From Acidimicrobiia bacterium (GTDB lineage Bacteria; Actinomycetota; Acidimicrobiia; Spongiisociales; ZC4RG35), in NCBI GenBank assembly GCA_025937235.1, contig JAICRU010000019.1, forward strand, positions 1 through 42,588: a stretch of DNA of 42,588 nucleotides, read 5' to 3'. This document shows positions 9,380-14,590 of this stretch, piece by piece. The notes beneath the pieces were generated by a model that saw nothing but the letters and a program-made list of their open reading frames with translations, did not search any database and had not been told where the DNA came from. Position 1 is the stretch's first letter. Each line of letters begins with the position of its first letter. Both the position numbers and the translations under genes were made by a program.

Positions 9380-9607
9380 CTACGCCGACTTGCGCTCTGA
9401 CCTGCGACCGGCAACTAGATAGACGGTGGCGCCTCCGGGGAGTCTCGTTGCCGTGTCCCACATTTCGGGGTTGCCACGGATCGACGAAGGGTCGCGGGCT
9501 GCGAGATCGCGCCGTGCGGTGGCAATCAGAGAGGCCGCGGTGATGGCCAATCCGGCGAGTAGCGCGGCCTTTCCTCCAGTGGGCAGGTTCTTCCAGAGTG
9601 TTCTCAT
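9380..9607 (-). CDS. Small single-pass membrane protein
   Basis: The 75-residue protein has one hydrophobic helix (about residues 12-31, GKAALLAGLAITAASLIAT) followed by RRDLAARDPSSIRG and a second short segment ending YLVAGRRS. The arrangement of a helix, a basic Arg-Asp motif, Ile-Arg-Gly and a closing Tyr-Leu-x-x-Gly-Arg-Arg resembles small actinobacterial phospholipase D N-terminal-like (PLDc_N) proteins, but the match is only by eye. Its ATG overlaps the stop of the CPBP-family gene by four bases, so it is translated from the same message. Confidence 0.6.
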   Translation of the reverse strand: MRTLWKNLPTGGKAALLAGLAITAASLIATARRDLAARDPSSIRGNPEMWDTATRLPGGATVYLVAGRRSERKSA

Positions 9608-10542
9608 GTCAAAGCCTCCTCTCTTGGACGCTCATGAGCCGTATTGCGGGCACCCTTGCGAATGTGTCGGTGGGCCAGCCATATGGCCATGACCATGACG
9701 ATGGCCACGTCGACGAAGCCGAGGATCGACTCCCAGGGCAAGTCGATGTCTCCTGCCTGGATATTGGTGAAGAAGGCCCCGAGGGGTGTGAGCAGCGGCC
9801 AGAGGATCAGGATGTTGGTGGTCAATCGGAAGATGATGGCGTAGACGACGCCGAGACCGAACAGGAACCACATTTGGCCGCCGGTCATGCCGTAGCCGAC
9901 GTGGTAGAGCGCATACAAGAGCGCCGCCCCGCCGACGGCCGGGATTACCCCGAAGCTCTCTTCGAGACGCCCCTGGATGAACCCTCGGAAGAAGACTGCC
10001 TCGAATAGCCCGACGACAAGGGACATGACCAGAAGCGGCACCCATTCGACCGGAGCGGGCAGGTCAAAGCCCCAGAGAGTCATGGCGAACTGGATGGCGG
10101 CGAATACCGAGCCCAGAATCAACGTGGCTCCCAGCTGGTGGAAGCCCAGCCCCAGTGACCGGAGGTCCCGGCCTCGCATCCAAACCTGGTAGACGATCGG
10201 GCCCACCACGCCGATTACCAGGCCAAAGGCGAAGCACAGGAACAGCCCGAGGATGTTGTCGGTGGTGAACACGGTGAACGCCAGACGAAACAGCCCAACC
10301 ACCGCTACATACGAGGCGCCTATCACCAGCAGGTCACGACTGTCGACGCCTCTGAAGGTGAAGCCGGGTCGGAGTCCTGGGAGGAGTGCGACGAGCAGCG
10401 CCGAGGGGACCACGAGGGCAGCCCACACGGCCACGTTGTCGATGTTCAGCAACAGCAGGGCCGCCAGGGAGAACAAGGCCCAGACGAAGATGCGAACTCG
10501 ACCTGGAGACCGGTTGACTTCGGAGTCGTGACCCATATGCAC
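9604..10542 (-). CDS. CPBP family intramembrane metalloprotease homologue
   Basis: The 312-residue protein has about eight hydrophobic segments. The CPBP (Abi/Rce1-type) signature is present as LFEAVFFRGFIQG; the first Glu and the FRG are kept but the second Glu of the usual EExxFRG is Ala. A histidine motif LYALYHVGYG and a later polar TTNILILWPLLTP complete the active-site pattern. Rce1-type proteins cleave prenylated or peptide substrates in the membrane; bacterial members often serve in bacteriocin immunity or regulation. The small membrane protein downstream overlaps its stop. The start may be ATG 10542 or the ATG two codons later. Confidence 0.8.
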   Translation of the reverse strand: MHMGHDSEVNRSPGRVRIFVWALFSLAALLLLNIDNVAVWAALVVPSALLVALLPGLRPGFTFRGVDSRDLLVIGASYVAVVGLFRLAFTVFTTDNILGLFLCFAFGLVIGVVGPIVYQVWMRGRDLRSLGLGFHQLGATLILGSVFAAIQFAMTLWGFDLPAPVEWVPLLVMSLVVGLFEAVFFRGFIQGRLEESFGVIPAVGGAALLYALYHVGYGMTGGQMWFLFGLGVVYAIIFRLTTNILILWPLLTPLGAFFTNIQAGDIDLPWESILGFVDVAIVMVMAIWLAHRHIRKGARNTAHERPREEALT

Positions 10543-10728
10543 TCAAGTGCCAGCCTCACATGTGTGGGTGCCCGTCACCAGAGCCAGAAGTCCCCAACTG
10601 AACAGAGATTCCAGTGAGCACACAACGGCGTGCGCTGGGTCAAGGCCCTCGAGAACGCGACGTACGTCCTGCCGGCCATGGCGGTCAAACGGCTCACGTC
10701 GACGGCGGTTCGCTCAGATCTGGGCGAC

Positions 10729-11157
10729 TTATGTCTCGGCGGACTCGGCGGCGTCCTTCATGCCCTGAACCTCGACTGTCATGTAGCGCTGGGTCAGGCC
10801 CTTGTAGAACAGGCCGACGACCGGGACGAGCAAGCCCCGCATGTCCAGGCTCAGGGTCAAGCGCGAGCGGCCTCCCTCGAGCGCTTCGACGCGATGACGC
10901 GCCACGTTGGTGACGCCTCCGGACTTCTGGCGAAACTCGAAATAGGTCGGCGCGTCCCAGACGGTGATCTCCCATTCGCCCTCTGGCAGCTTCGGTTGCT
11001 TGAGGCGTACCCGGCTGCCTTCGGCCACAGGGCCCGGCGTGAGCAACTCGACGTCTTCGACCGTCTCGATATGGCGCGGCCACGCTTCGAGGTCGCTGAG
11101 CACCTCCCAGACGCGCTGCTGCCGGGCCTCGACATCGATGGATTCCTCAAAATGCAT
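10729..11157 (-). CDS. SRPBCC (polyketide cyclase/START-like) family protein
   Basis: The 142-residue protein starts at MHFEESIDVE (ATG 11157); a longer frame would enter non-coding sequence beside the mobile remnant. The START/Bet v1-like fold is recognised from FEESIDVEARQQRVWEVLSD, WPRHIETV, an acidic strand pair, TYFEFRQ and a long C-terminal helix (KGLTQRYMTVEVQGMKDAA). Such proteins bind hydrophobic ligands or act as small cyclases; no catalytic residue can be assigned. It appears monocistronic and is the last intact gene before the integrated-element remnant. Confidence 0.78.
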   Translation of the reverse strand: MHFEESIDVEARQQRVWEVLSDLEAWPRHIETVEDVELLTPGPVAEGSRVRLKQPKLPEGEWEITVWDAPTYFEFRQKSGGVTNVARHRVEALEGGRSRLTLSLDMRGLLVPVVGLFYKGLTQRYMTVEVQGMKDAAESAET

Positions 11158-11215
11158 GCCGACGGTCACCTCGAAGGTCGCCCTGCTCCAAGCCGGGCAC
11201 GTTAGGGGAGGCGGC

Positions 11216-11244
11216 CCAGACCTGCCTCGCTCACACCGACCCCA
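11216..11244 (+). pseudogene. Scrap of a second tyrosine integrase 3' region
   Basis: This 29-base stretch matches 12838-12866 in the larger integrase remnant at 27 of 29 positions. It encodes QTCLAHTDP against QTRLGHTDP, the conserved motif with the third catalytic His. It lies just left of the left att copy, in the same relation and orientation as the larger remnant has to the right copy. It is too short to be functional and I read it as the end of an older, mostly deleted insertion. Confidence 0.5.
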
Positions 11245-11262
11245 TGGAGAGATGGAAACTAC

Positions 11263-11355
11263 TCCCAAACCAGCGGGCCGCTCCGGAGAGCGACCTGACC
11301 TGGGGTTTCTGAGTCGGGACGGCGGGATTCGAACCCACGATCTCAGCGTCCCGAA
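11263..11355 (-). repeat. Left att copy: duplicated 3' half of tRNA-Pro plus downstream sequence
   Basis: This segment repeats 13016-13108. Positions 11314-11355 match the tRNA-Pro 3' half, from the anticodon loop through the T arm to the 3' end, with one mismatch (11341). Positions 11263-11313 match the region beyond the tRNA 3' end, including a degenerate hairpin, with about six mismatches. Identity stops abruptly inside the anticodon loop, where the tRNA 5' half is absent. This is the form left by tyrosine-recombinase integration at a tRNA gene. Confidence 0.8.
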
Positions 11356-11475
11356 AGGTGCCGGGCCGTTCCCAAAGACTGATTCGGACGAACTACCAGG
11401 TCAGAGCGTATGAGCGGACTGGTGTGGACTGTTGTGGATGTCTGCGGACGCGCGATGGAGCGGGGCTGCATTTGG

Positions 11476-11619
11476 TCAGGTGACCTCGAGGAATCGCCGG
11501 ATCGCCTCGCGGAAGATCTCGCTCGTCGTCGTCTGCTCGGCCTCGGCGCGCGCTTCGATCGCAGCCCGCAACTCCGGTTCGATACGCACAGGCACGACAT
11601 CGTCCGGACCCGATCCCAT
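11476..11619 (-). CDS. Ribbon-helix-helix (CopG/Arc-type) antitoxin-like protein, N-terminus possibly lost
   Basis: From ATG 11619 the frame gives 47 residues: a beta strand VVPVRIEPELRAAIE followed by two helices ending TTTSEIFREAIRRFLEV, the classic RHH DNA-binding fold. The same frame is open further upstream to 11703 and reads like the N-terminal part of this antitoxin family (HHELVIAS, VEALKTRHRGRPAMGSG), but it has no ATG or GTG before a TGA at 11704-11706. The original start was probably lost. No toxin gene is seen beside it, so it is an orphan or remnant within the integrated element. Confidence 0.6.
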   Translation of the reverse strand: MGSGPDDVVPVRIEPELRAAIEARAEAEQTTTSEIFREAIRRFLEVT

Positions 11620-11932
11620 TGCGGGTCGACCCCGATGCCGGGTCTTGAGGGCTTCGACGTCGTCGCAGGATGCGATGACCAGTTCGTGGTGGCGCTTCCC
11701 GATTCATTGATTCCTACGCCGGCGACGCTCTTGCTCAGTTCCCTGCAGAGGATGGTGAGTCATGGCCCGTCGAGCTGCAGGAAGGCACCTATGGGTTCAG
11801 GCCACCGGTTCAGGAACCGGAGCAGACCCTCTTGGACGTTCGAACTTGCCAGGGATGACCAGGGTTGTTGAGCGGCCCGTTGACGTGAGCCTGGGGCTCA
11901 CGGTGCAAGCACAGCTGCCGATATCGGGCGGG
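11620..11932. other. Gene-poor stretch inside the element remnant
   Basis: Apart from the upstream extension of the antitoxin frame, no convincing gene is present. A plus-strand frame ending with TGA near 11870 reads as a short protein-like segment (FIDSYAGDALAQFPAEDG) but lacks a start and may be a gene scrap. A perfect 7-bp inverted repeat, CCGGTTC-AG-GAACCGG, lies at 11805-11820; its role is unknown. Confidence 0.4.
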
Positions 11933-12379
11933 CTAGATACGGGCGATCTCGCGTTGGCGTCGTGACCTGACCACAGCCCATGTAACCGCCGCGGCCCCGG
12001 TTGCGGTAACACCGCCAGCGATGAGAGCGGGACTTCGACTCGGTTCAAAAGGTTCAGGACCTGAGTACTCGATGCCGATCGGGCTGGTACAGATGACTGG
12101 TGAAATCGTCTCCTCGCCGGACGCGAAATTCTGACTGAATGACTGAGAGCAACCCCACGGGGCGACGAGCACGTATGCGATAAGGAATCCCAGGAACAGG
12201 GCCAACCCAGGGAGAAAGACCTGCGGTCGGGACCGGAAGGGGGACAACAGCGCTAGGGCGACCGCCATGAACCAGAAGTACAGCCCGATGCTGAAGATCG
12301 TGAGGACTCCGAAGGCAAACAGGACTCCGACGACGAGCCAAAACTTCAAGCTTGCCTCTTCCGGAGGGCTGTCGCCCAT
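11933..12379 (-). CDS. Hypothetical membrane protein carried by the element remnant
   Basis: The 148-residue protein starts at ATG 12379. Three hydrophobic helices are visible, about residues 12-45 (probably two close helices), 55-68 and 119-135. A polar, probably external, stretch holding two Cys (CSQSFSQNF and VICTSPIG) lies between the last two, and a basic tail RSRRQREIARI should face the cytoplasm. No family is recognised. It is the only long intact frame between the two att copies and is probably cargo, although it could also be an older chromosomal gene. Confidence 0.5.
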   Translation of the reverse strand: MGDSPPEEASLKFWLVVGVLFAFGVLTIFSIGLYFWFMAVALALLSPFRSRPQVFLPGLALFLGFLIAYVLVAPWGCSQSFSQNFASGEETISPVICTSPIGIEYSGPEPFEPSRSPALIAGGVTATGAAAVTWAVVRSRRQREIARI

Positions 12380-12596
12380 GGCCTATTCTCCCACAGAGCC
12401 CGCATCGACTAACAGCGCATAACGGGCGCCCTCGAAGCCCAGGATCACCCAGACCACCCGCCCGAGAACCGGCAATATGCGCTAGCGAGCATCGTGGACC
12501 GTGGCAGTGCTTGTACTTGAGGCCTGACCCGCACGGCAGCGCTCATTGCGGCCCGTCTCCGCCTGCGTCCTCCTAGTGGGCTGACCCGGCAGCTTC

Positions 12597-12988
12597 TTCG
12601 CTCGAGCCGCCCTCATGGAACTCCTCGCAAACCATTCGAACGGCGAGGACTGATCACCAGGGACACCGACGTCTTCCTCTTTACCACCCGGACGGGGAAC
12701 ACCTCGACTCCTCGAACTGGCTGCACCGGATCTGGTACCGGCCCGCCACCAACCGGACGTCGAGTGGGCTCAGTTCGACGACCTCCGCCGGGCCAACGCA
12801 CGGGACTCGTCCTCGAAGGCAACGACCCGAAGACGGTCCAGACCCGCCTCGGTCACACCGACCCCAGGCTCACTCTCGGCATCTACGCCCAGGCCACCAC
12901 CGAAGCCGACCGGCAGGCCGCCGAGCGCCTCGGGGAACGGTTTCTACCCAGCCAGGACCGCGATCGAGGTCGAGGTCGTGGTTTATGA
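12597..12988 (+). pseudogene. Tyrosine recombinase (integrase) C-terminal remnant with several frameshifts
   Basis: Catalytic-domain pieces can be joined only across several frame changes. In order they are: MELLANH; FERRGLITRDTDVFLFTTRTG; GEHLDSSNWLHRIWYRPAT; DVEWAQFDDLRRANA (second catalytic Arg, with Asp in place of the usual His); and TGLVLEGNDPKTVQTRLGHTDPRL with LTLGIYAQATTEADRQ, which holds the last His and the Tyr nucleophile. The N-terminal DNA-binding domains are missing. It points toward the tRNA-Pro and ends about 80 bases from it, the usual place for an integrase that uses this tRNA as attachment site. It cannot make a working enzyme. Confidence 0.8.
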
Positions 12989-13015
12989 CGCGCGACGGAC
13001 GCGCGATGGAATCGG

Positions 13016-13108
13016 TCCCAAACAAGCAGGCCACTCCGGAGAGCGGCCTGACCTGGGGTTTCTGAGTCGGGACGGCGGGATTCGAACCCACGACCTCAGC
13101 GTCCCGAA
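13016..13108 (-). repeat. Right att copy overlapping the intact tRNA-Pro 3' half
   Basis: This is the partner of 11263-11355 at an offset of 1753 bases. It covers the tRNA-Pro 3' half and 51 bases beyond the tRNA 3' end. The homology outside the tRNA shows that the duplicated segment is longer than the usual att core. Confidence 0.8.
13027..13050 (-). terminator. Probable intrinsic terminator of tRNA-Pro
   Basis: On the minus strand CAGGCCGCTC pairs with GAGTGGCCTG around a TCCG loop, a 10-bp stem with a single G-T pair. It is followed by CTTGTTTGGG, a weak T-rich tract, and lies 17 bases downstream of the tRNA 3' end. A partly degraded version is present in the left att copy. Confidence 0.6.
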
Positions 13109-13140
13109 CGCTGCGCGCTACCAAACTGCGCCACGTCCCG
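13067..13140 (-). tRNA. tRNA-Pro (anticodon CGG)
   Basis: The minus strand folds into a full cloverleaf. The acceptor stem is CGGGACG/CGTCCCG, the D arm is GCGC-loop-GCGC, the anticodon stem is CAGCG/CGCTG around TTCGGGA, and the T arm is GTGGG-TTCGAAT-CCCGC. The anticodon CGG reads CCG proline codons. CCA is not encoded; the base after the acceptor stem is A. The gene is intact although it serves as the attachment site of the adjacent element, whose integration restored the 3' half. Confidence 0.95.
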
Positions 13141-13267
13141 AATGAGGGCCGAATGGTAGGCCGGCGAATCGCCCTAGCCCACTCGATCACAACCGACATA
13201 ACCCCTTCCCAACCGGGAAAAGCGGCATACGCTGATGGTCAGGCAAAGACAGCCACAGGAGGGTTGG

Positions 13268-13573
13268 ATGACCGCCTACGACGCGCAGCTCAGGCTGAGC
13301 GGGAGCGACGATGCCCCGATCCACGTTGTTGTCGACCTGACCGACGACCGTCTCACGATGACGGCCGGGGACATCGAAGTCGGCGACTGGGCACGCGATC
13401 AGGTCCGGGTCTCGGCGATGCCTGACGGTTTCCATGTTCGGGCGGAAGGTGAGGAGATCATCCTCGACGTCACCGACGACGCCCATTTCGCGCTGGATCT
13501 CGGACTGCGAAACGCACCACCCATCCTGCGGCGACGTATGTCGGCCCTCCTCCGCAGTGACGCAGACGGGTAG
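13268..13573 (+). CDS. Hypothetical protein
   Basis: A strong ribosome site (AGGAGGG) sits about six bases before ATG 13268, which decides this start over upstream codons. The 101-residue product is rich in beta strands and acidic residues, with the pattern YDAQLRLSG, IHVVVDLTDDRLTMTAG, GDWARDQVRVSAMPDGFHV and IILDVTDDAHFALDLG. It reads like a small beta-sandwich or PH-like domain, but I recognise no named family. It has no signal peptide or membrane helix and is convergent with asd. Confidence 0.72.
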   Translation: MTAYDAQLRLSGSDDAPIHVVVDLTDDRLTMTAGDIEVGDWARDQVRVSAMPDGFHVRAEGEEIILDVTDDAHFALDLGLRNAPPILRRRMSALLRSDADG

Positions 13574-13579
13574 GTCTGG

Positions 13580-14590
13580 CTAGAGCAGTTCGGCGATCTG
13601 GACCGCGTTCAGCGCGGCCCCTTTGCGCAGGTTGTCAGCAACGACCCATAGGTTGATCCCACCGGGCTGGCCCAGGGTCGGCCTGATCCTTCCCACCAGG
13701 ACGTCGTCGATGCCGGCCGAATCCAGTGGGGTCGGCACCTTGTCGGTCCACACCTGCAGGCCGGGGGCAGAGGTGAGGATCTCCGCCGCCTCATCGGGGT
13801 CGACCGGCCTCTCGAATCGGAGTGATGCGGCCACACCATGCCCAACCAGGGTGGGGACGCGGACACATGTCGGCTCGACGAGGAGATCGGGGATGTCGAG
13901 GATCTTTCTCGACTCGTTGACCAGCTTCCACTCCTCGTCGGTGTAGCCCTGCTCGGTTTCCGATCCGGCGTAAGGAAGGACGTTGAATCCGATGGGCCGG
14001 GCGTAGAGCGAGGGACTCGGGTCCTCCCAGCCCCCGTTCATCAAAGACTCGAGGTCGGGACGAAAGAGATCGGTCTGCTCGATGAGCTCGCGGACACCCT
14101 GTTGTCCCGAGCCGGAGACCGACTGATACGACGTGGCAACCATCGTCCTCAGCCCCGCGGCCCGGTGAAGGGGCCCCGCCGCCATCATCAGAGCCATCGT
14201 GGTGCAGTTCGGGTTGGCGATGATCCCCCGGTGCGATCCCACTGCGGCGTCGTTGACACCGGCCACCACGAGGGGGACCGAGGCGTCCATCCGGAAAGCC
14301 GAAGAGTTGTCGATGACGACCGCTCCTGCCTCGGCGAAGGCCGGGGCGTGATCCCGGGACCGGTCACCGCCGGCGGAGAACAAGGCGATGTCGATCCCGG
14401 CCGGGTCCGCCGTCGACAGGTTCTCCACTTCGAGATCACCCCATCGCGTCTTCACCACTGACCCGGTGGAGCGCTCGGAGGCAAGCAGACGCAGGCATCC
14501 GAGCGGAAAACTGCGTGATTCGAGGATGGCCCTCATGGTGCGGCCGACCGCTCCGGTGGCCCCGACAACCGCAACCACCCGATCACTCAA
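13580..14590 (-). CDS. asd: Aspartate-semialdehyde dehydrogenase
   Basis: This enzyme reduces aspartyl-4-phosphate to aspartate semialdehyde with NADPH, for lysine, threonine, methionine and diaminopimelate synthesis. The 336-residue length is normal. GATGAVG (10-16) binds the nucleotide, IDNSSAFRMD is conserved, and ANPNCTT carries the catalytic Cys129. SYQSVSGSGQQG and the later RVPTLVGHG with the catalytic-region His are also family marks. Its start overlaps the aspartokinase stop by four bases (ATGA), so the two consecutive pathway enzymes are coupled. Confidence 0.96.
   Translation of the reverse strand: MSDRVVAVVGATGAVGRTMRAILESRSFPLGCLRLLASERSTGSVVKTRWGDLEVENLSTADPAGIDIALFSAGGDRSRDHAPAFAEAGAVVIDNSSAFRMDASVPLVVAGVNDAAVGSHRGIIANPNCTTMALMMAAGPLHRAAGLRTMVATSYQSVSGSGQQGVRELIEQTDLFRPDLESLMNGGWEDPSPSLYARPIGFNVLPYAGSETEQGYTDEEWKLVNESRKILDIPDLLVEPTCVRVPTLVGHGVAASLRFERPVDPDEAAEILTSAPGLQVWTDKVPTPLDSAGIDDVLVGRIRPTLGQPGGINLWVVADNLRKGAALNAVQIAELL

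Follow-up and report, generated by a model that had tools for sequence, protein, structure and literature searches.

The window analysed here is a 42,588-nt stretch of contig JAICRU010000019.1 from an Acidimicrobiia bacterium. Its sole tRNA gene encodes tRNA-Pro(CGG), and the 3′ half of this gene is present a second time among the features collected in Table 1. The direct repeat (11263-11361 and 13016-13114) covers 99 nt at 93% identity and aligns locally with a score of 82, where 200 shuffles gave no more than 15.1. This bears out the initial annotation, which had described a duplicated tRNA half with one mismatch and had proposed aligning 11263-11355 to 13016-13108. The tRNA part of the repeat is 43 nt long with a single mismatch (T at 11341, C at 13094), the flank part extends 50 nt past the tRNA 3′ end with four mismatches, and a scan of the window found the full-length core at these two places only. 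The copies cease to match at the 5′ edge of the anticodon loop, an endpoint that the repeat shares with Islander-type tRNA islands. No tRNA 5′ half was found after the distal copy, where the best local score was 6 of 32 (the real tRNA scores 32).

Table 1. Features of the tRNA-Pro locus in window coordinates. E and N are flank scores defined in the text.
Feature	Position	Strand	Remarks
Presumed CPBP-type membrane protease-like ORF	9604..10542	-	its side syntenic with G001 up to window 10599
SRPBCC (polyketide cyclase-like) gene	10729..11163	-	beyond the putative older scar; Pfam PF10604 E 9e-18
Putative integrase-tail scar of an older related element	11209..11244	+	32/36 identical to 12831-12866
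Element-type flank behind the displaced half, probably from the older element	11263..11312	-	E score 27, N score 8
Distal att core	11313..11355	-	displaced tRNA-Pro 3′ half
Truncated ribbon-helix-helix (RHH, CopG-type) antitoxin-like gene	11476..11676	-	distal end; Pfam RHH_1 E 7e-7
148-aa orphan membrane-protein ORF	11933..12379	-	probable cargo
Tyrosine integrase remnant	12635..12985	+	C-terminal end only; three frame changes, at ~12703, 12738 and 12800
Element-type flank, probably supplied with the 3′ half	13016..13065	-	hairpin then T-rich tail, terminator-like
Proximal att core	13066..13108	-	tRNA 3′ half, anticodon loop to 3′ end; 1 mismatch in 43 to 11313-11355
tRNA-Pro(CGG)	13066..13140	-	ARAGORN; intact; probable integration target with restored 3′ half
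asd side: 112-aa ORF (+) and asd (-)	13235..14590		conserved; syntenic with G001 and G002

Between the two cores lies the end of a tyrosine integrase gene, which is read in four successive frames (12635-12703, 12703-12738, 12738-12800 and 12800-12985). Its fragments match an intact 394-aa relative, L108 in genome G034 (tblastn E 2e-20), and Pfam Phage_integrase on the last segment alone gave a weak hit (E 0.006) below the gathering cut-off. The initial annotation had recognised a frameshifted tyrosine integrase here, and both the match and the tree described below agree with it; its view that the catalytic domain can be rebuilt was too generous, since approximately the last 115 residues are left and the window has DDLRR where its relatives have an HDLRR motif. 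Nothing equivalent to residues ~1-270 of the intact relative was found. The RLGH and YAQA stretches, invariant in eight aligned relatives, are present in the tail. The genome contains no other clear integrase of the same family (the next matches have E 0.066 and 1.05). Because the integrase is broken and shortened and no second family member was found in the genome, the window element is unlikely to move by its own means.

Among the other genes of the locus, the 148-aa ORF has a homologue in one of 34 family genomes, its own (E<=1e-5), and its DUF898 match (E 2.7e-4) is below the cut-off. The RHH gene is 82% identical to residues 26-91 of the full 92-aa homologue in G002. It adjoins a tRNA half in the window, G002, G007 and G009, and G015 has an RHH gene with no half. 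A toxin-antitoxin pair was not recognised, as the RHH gene is truncated and no toxin frame was seen in the window, and a toxin-like fragment beside the G015 homologue (L102, toxin-frame peptide) matched no Pfam family. We noticed toxin-antitoxin-like genes near tRNA-Pro in other genera, namely a nucleotidyltransferase gene with a truncated HepT-like gene in G007 (L048 5288-6141); near tRNA-Pro in G020 (L051 3482-4868), PIN occurs with a FitA-like RHH, and ParE with Phd/YefM. Two duplications were also seen: a hydrophobic ORF in the tRNA-Pro region of G007 (L048 2260-2751 and 4920-5360) lies once beyond and once inside the element, and the homologue of the 112-aa ORF (window 13235-13573) occurs twice in G019 (L047 2555-2857 and 10641-10961), 8 kb apart. 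The SRPBCC gene was found in three of 21 genomes at E<=1e-10 (its own, G002 on a different contig, and G010), is absent from G001, and is accessory, either a host gene or old cargo.

The flank behind the tRNA folds at -28.8 kcal/mol (z -3.4), and a terminator pattern scan returned one terminator-like site only, 13050-13027, with 1.3 expected in shuffles. Six flanks of both types were folded and all form strong hairpins. For the typing of flanks at 32 sites, each was given a local score to the window tRNA flank (E, element-type) and to the G001 flank (N, native), and a type was called when its score was >12, the highest of 500 shuffles of one flank, and above that of the other type. Thirteen sites are E-type, eight are N-type and 11, including both sites with intact integrases, are neither; since the two flanks are both hairpins rich in GC, several calls are weak (scores of 14-15).

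We compared the window with two congeners, and the flanks distinguish the three sites. G001, whose asd is 92% identical, has a native hairpin flank (E 11, N 40) behind its tRNA, and then a cyclase gene. The initial annotation had suggested looking in relatives for an empty site, and for a second tRNA half persisting without the element; G001, the closest relative lacking the element, has no tRNA half, no RHH gene and no integrase. Neither this outcome nor the integrase match above refutes the initial annotation, which had named both as tests. The G001 site is not strictly empty, since the cyclase gene fills, on its other side, the interval that in the window comprises the SRPBCC gene and the element (window 10600-13046 against L040 2632-4241), and no close copy of this gene was found in the window genome (best match by E-value 37% identical). 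In G002 (asd 85%), the tRNA has an element-type flank (E 34, N 10) and a displaced half 2.7 kb away, adjoined by the intact RHH gene, keeps the native flank (E 11, N 26); sequence retained beside its tRNA matches window 12938-13140 and takes in the final integrase codons. In the window, both the tRNA (E 40, N 11) and the displaced half (E 27, N 8) have element-type flanks. The window element and that of G002 have different interiors and may be separate arrivals. The three congeners show an empty site (G001), a single insertion (G002) and a probable stacked insertion (the window).

The evidence for stacking lies beyond the displaced half, a region in which the initial annotation was incomplete: its tRNA-Pro scar with two att copies stands, and it missed the second integrase tail at 11209-11244 and the element-type distal flank. 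The second tail scores 26, which none of 1000 dinucleotide shuffles reaches (maximum 16), and among 839 window segments compared with the integrase tail, two overlapping the scar score 26 and the next best scores 15.5. Its best match is the tail at L107 (91%, 32/35), marginally nearer than the window tail over a length too short to resolve the two. In the distal copy an integrase tail is followed by a flank and a half tRNA, as at the proximal end, and the arrangement of an integrase tail with a half tRNA recurs in G009 and on contig C35 of G034. Because the displaced half carries an element-type flank and a second integrase tail, it most likely marks where an earlier related element, since deleted down to its tail, had inserted, and the locus would hold two generations of insertion. 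The traces of the older element amount to 36 nt of integrase and 50 nt of flank, and the window yielded no far end for it and no native flank, which leaves the first insertion only half visible.

Related remnants were found in other genomes. Displaced halves occur in at least six of the 34 family genomes, in seven copies, a lower bound as the genomes are fragmented; an uncertain 33-nt match in G014 adds to these. The integrase tail is present in 10 of 138 genomes of the order, at 11 places (E<=1e-9). Among the places outside the window, the seven most similar (71-81% identity) all lack a full-length frame, and the integrases on contig C31 of G034 and in G027 are intact. The query in this search was the tail itself, which favours tails, and the G089 integrase holds an assembly gap; for both reasons the tail-only matches are not proof of an extinct integrase branch. 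In G089, the integrase and an excisionase gene lie at tRNA-Pro, 5.8 kb from a displaced half. Within the same genomes, fourfold sites of the tail are much more often alike to those of the window than fourfold sites of asd (G026, 23/29 vs 48/139; G004, 19/28 vs 66/152), which points to movement of the elements between lineages. For the same reason we rejected the idea of one ancestral scar inherited vertically.

As for the specificity of the integrase, a search of genome_contigs with the intact integrase alone as query gave no matches. A search with the tail alignment gave 80 loci in genome_contigs and 13 in viral_contigs, of which the 80 and the best viral locus were examined. Among the 32 relatives with >=54% identity, tRNA-Pro(CGG) lies within 1 kb downstream on the opposite strand in 15 and upstream in two; four have part of a tRNA-Pro only (L156 at a contig end), one has a tRNA-Thr at 1191 bp, and ten have no tRNA, four of these with <200 bp of sequence left. 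This count overlaps genomes already counted (L120 is G089, L135 is G004 and L152 is G020). The relatives are mostly tail-to-tail with tRNA-Pro(CGG) in actinobacterial MAGs; less similar integrases also occur at Val, Thr and Met tRNAs, and the plasmid and phage collections yielded only relatives of <60% identity. The window tail falls with three tRNA-Pro-adjacent tails in a tree of 44 rows (support 100/97), where five changes of the Pro label are needed, compared with a shuffled mean of 12.4 (0/500). The viral_contigs record L200 (4250 nt) pairs a related integrase with an adjacent half of the tRNA-Pro(CGG) type, which may be an attP or the scar of stacking. The displaced halves in relatives and the integrases at tRNA-Pro support the earlier suggestion that this tRNA is an integration hotspot, and the repeat, the remnant and the sites in relatives likewise support a dead element of ~1.75 kb between two att copies.

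Together with the specificity of its relatives, the locus supports site-specific integration at tRNA-Pro, and very probably a younger element inserted at a tRNA-Pro(CGG) already occupied by an element of the same family, both of which have since decayed. The attP of a tyrosine-integrase element specific for this tRNA would have recombined with the half running from the anticodon loop to the 3′ end, the 3′ half and terminator-like hairpin flank brought by the element would have made the gene whole again, and the old half would have been displaced to the far end of the element. Landing on a tRNA occupied by an earlier element of the family would account for the older integrase tail and flank beyond the displaced half. 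The older element would then have been deleted except for its tail, and the younger one would have shrunk to 1.75 kb, its integrase losing most of its length and its frame, along with any excision, replication and transfer genes it may have had. The residue would be able to move only through the action of a related integrase on its att sites.

Other histories were weighed against this one. If there had been one integration only, the block 11209-11361 would have arisen afterwards from the proximal end, by duplication or gene conversion; the same ordered parts in both copies are compatible with this, as is a second integrase tail of only 36 nt. However, the copy stops precisely at the anticodon loop, as displaced halves elsewhere do, the copies differ from each other (32/36 in the tail, 46/50 in the flank), the older tail is marginally nearer to L107, albeit over a stretch too short to be decisive, and stacked tails recur in G009 and G034, so we consider a single integration quite unlikely. 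Slightly less probable still is the joint arrival of both elements as a composite, in which an element carried an attached decayed one: transfer of such tandems is reported in the relevant passages of PMC5704250, but positive evidence was not found here and an intact composite would be needed in the donor. That the tRNA half and the integrase pieces reflect chance or ordinary paralogous similarity, for which only the weak Pfam score speaks, has a negligible probability and is already refuted by the alignment score against its shuffles and by the comparative flank evidence.

We asked which known class of element the window element resembles. pSAM2 itself sits in a tRNA-Pro gene. The literature searched contained no paper connecting either pSAM2 or Acidimicrobiia to tRNA-Pro. 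Some related integrases belong to larger elements: in L147, RepSA (Pfam E 1.6e-146) and a TraB/FtsK-like protein go with the integrase, and a tRNA-Pro half lies displaced at a distance of 8.6 kb; homologues of RepSA and TraB also occur with the L125 integrase; a replication-relaxation protein and an excisionase are encoded in L124, and an excisionase homologue in G089. From their gene content, L147 and L125 look like pSAM2-type AICEs. L147 1904-10569 (JAHFUS010000072.1) and L125 are apparently complete AICEs at tRNA-Pro(CGG), from MAGs titled 'Actinomycetes bacterium'; because this is their only title, they do not contradict the statement, in PMC3218068, that Acidimicrobidae appeared devoid of AICEs as of 2011. 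The window element shares with AICEs, as outlined there, the tyrosine integrase and the att site in a tRNA 3′ end, but lacks the RepSA and FtsK-like TraB found with the related integrases of L147 and L125; tblastn of the L147 RepSA, the L147 TraB and the L124 replication-relaxation protein gave no window match at E<=1e-6. Since no gene for replication, transfer or excision (rep, tra, xis) is left, we rejected classifying it as an AICE, although it may once have been one. With Islander islands (PMC4383910), it shares a whole tRNA, a displaced 3′ fragment in the same orientation and an integrase next to the tRNA. The stated filters would reject it, as it is under the 2-kb lower limit and its integrase is broken. 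It has a non-functional integrase remnant between the tRNA and the fragment, and an empty site in G001. The likeness to CIMEs and accretion (PMC5704250; decayed AICEs, PMC9513070, both as excerpted) lies in successive insertions at one tRNA and in a decayed element between two att copies, and here two att sites are kept and integration and transfer functions are lost. CIMEs are mobilised by an element that integrates next to them; the window element is a candidate for this, in a genome where no second integrase of the family was found.

The locus is a well-supported new case of a known process, the accretion and decay of tRNA-targeting integrative elements, and its mechanism is textbook. Tandem accretion at tRNA genes with decay to two-att elements has been described in parts of PMC5704250 and PMC9513070, and the reading of islands from a tRNA and a displaced fragment in sections of PMC4383910. 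A broader proposal, which we regard as rather doubtful, is that the family carries a replacement tRNA 3′ half with a terminator-like hairpin so that stacking never disturbs the tRNA, that tRNA-Pro(CGG) would thereby be a long-lived landing pad across several families of the order, and that dead 1.75-kb residues with two att cores might stay mobilisable by newcomers. The value of the case is that the hairpin flank behind the tRNA distinguishes the states of this site in three congeners: empty, occupied once and, on the favoured reading, occupied by stacked insertions. This flank is a simple marker of integration history at tRNA genes in uncultured actinobacteria of this group.
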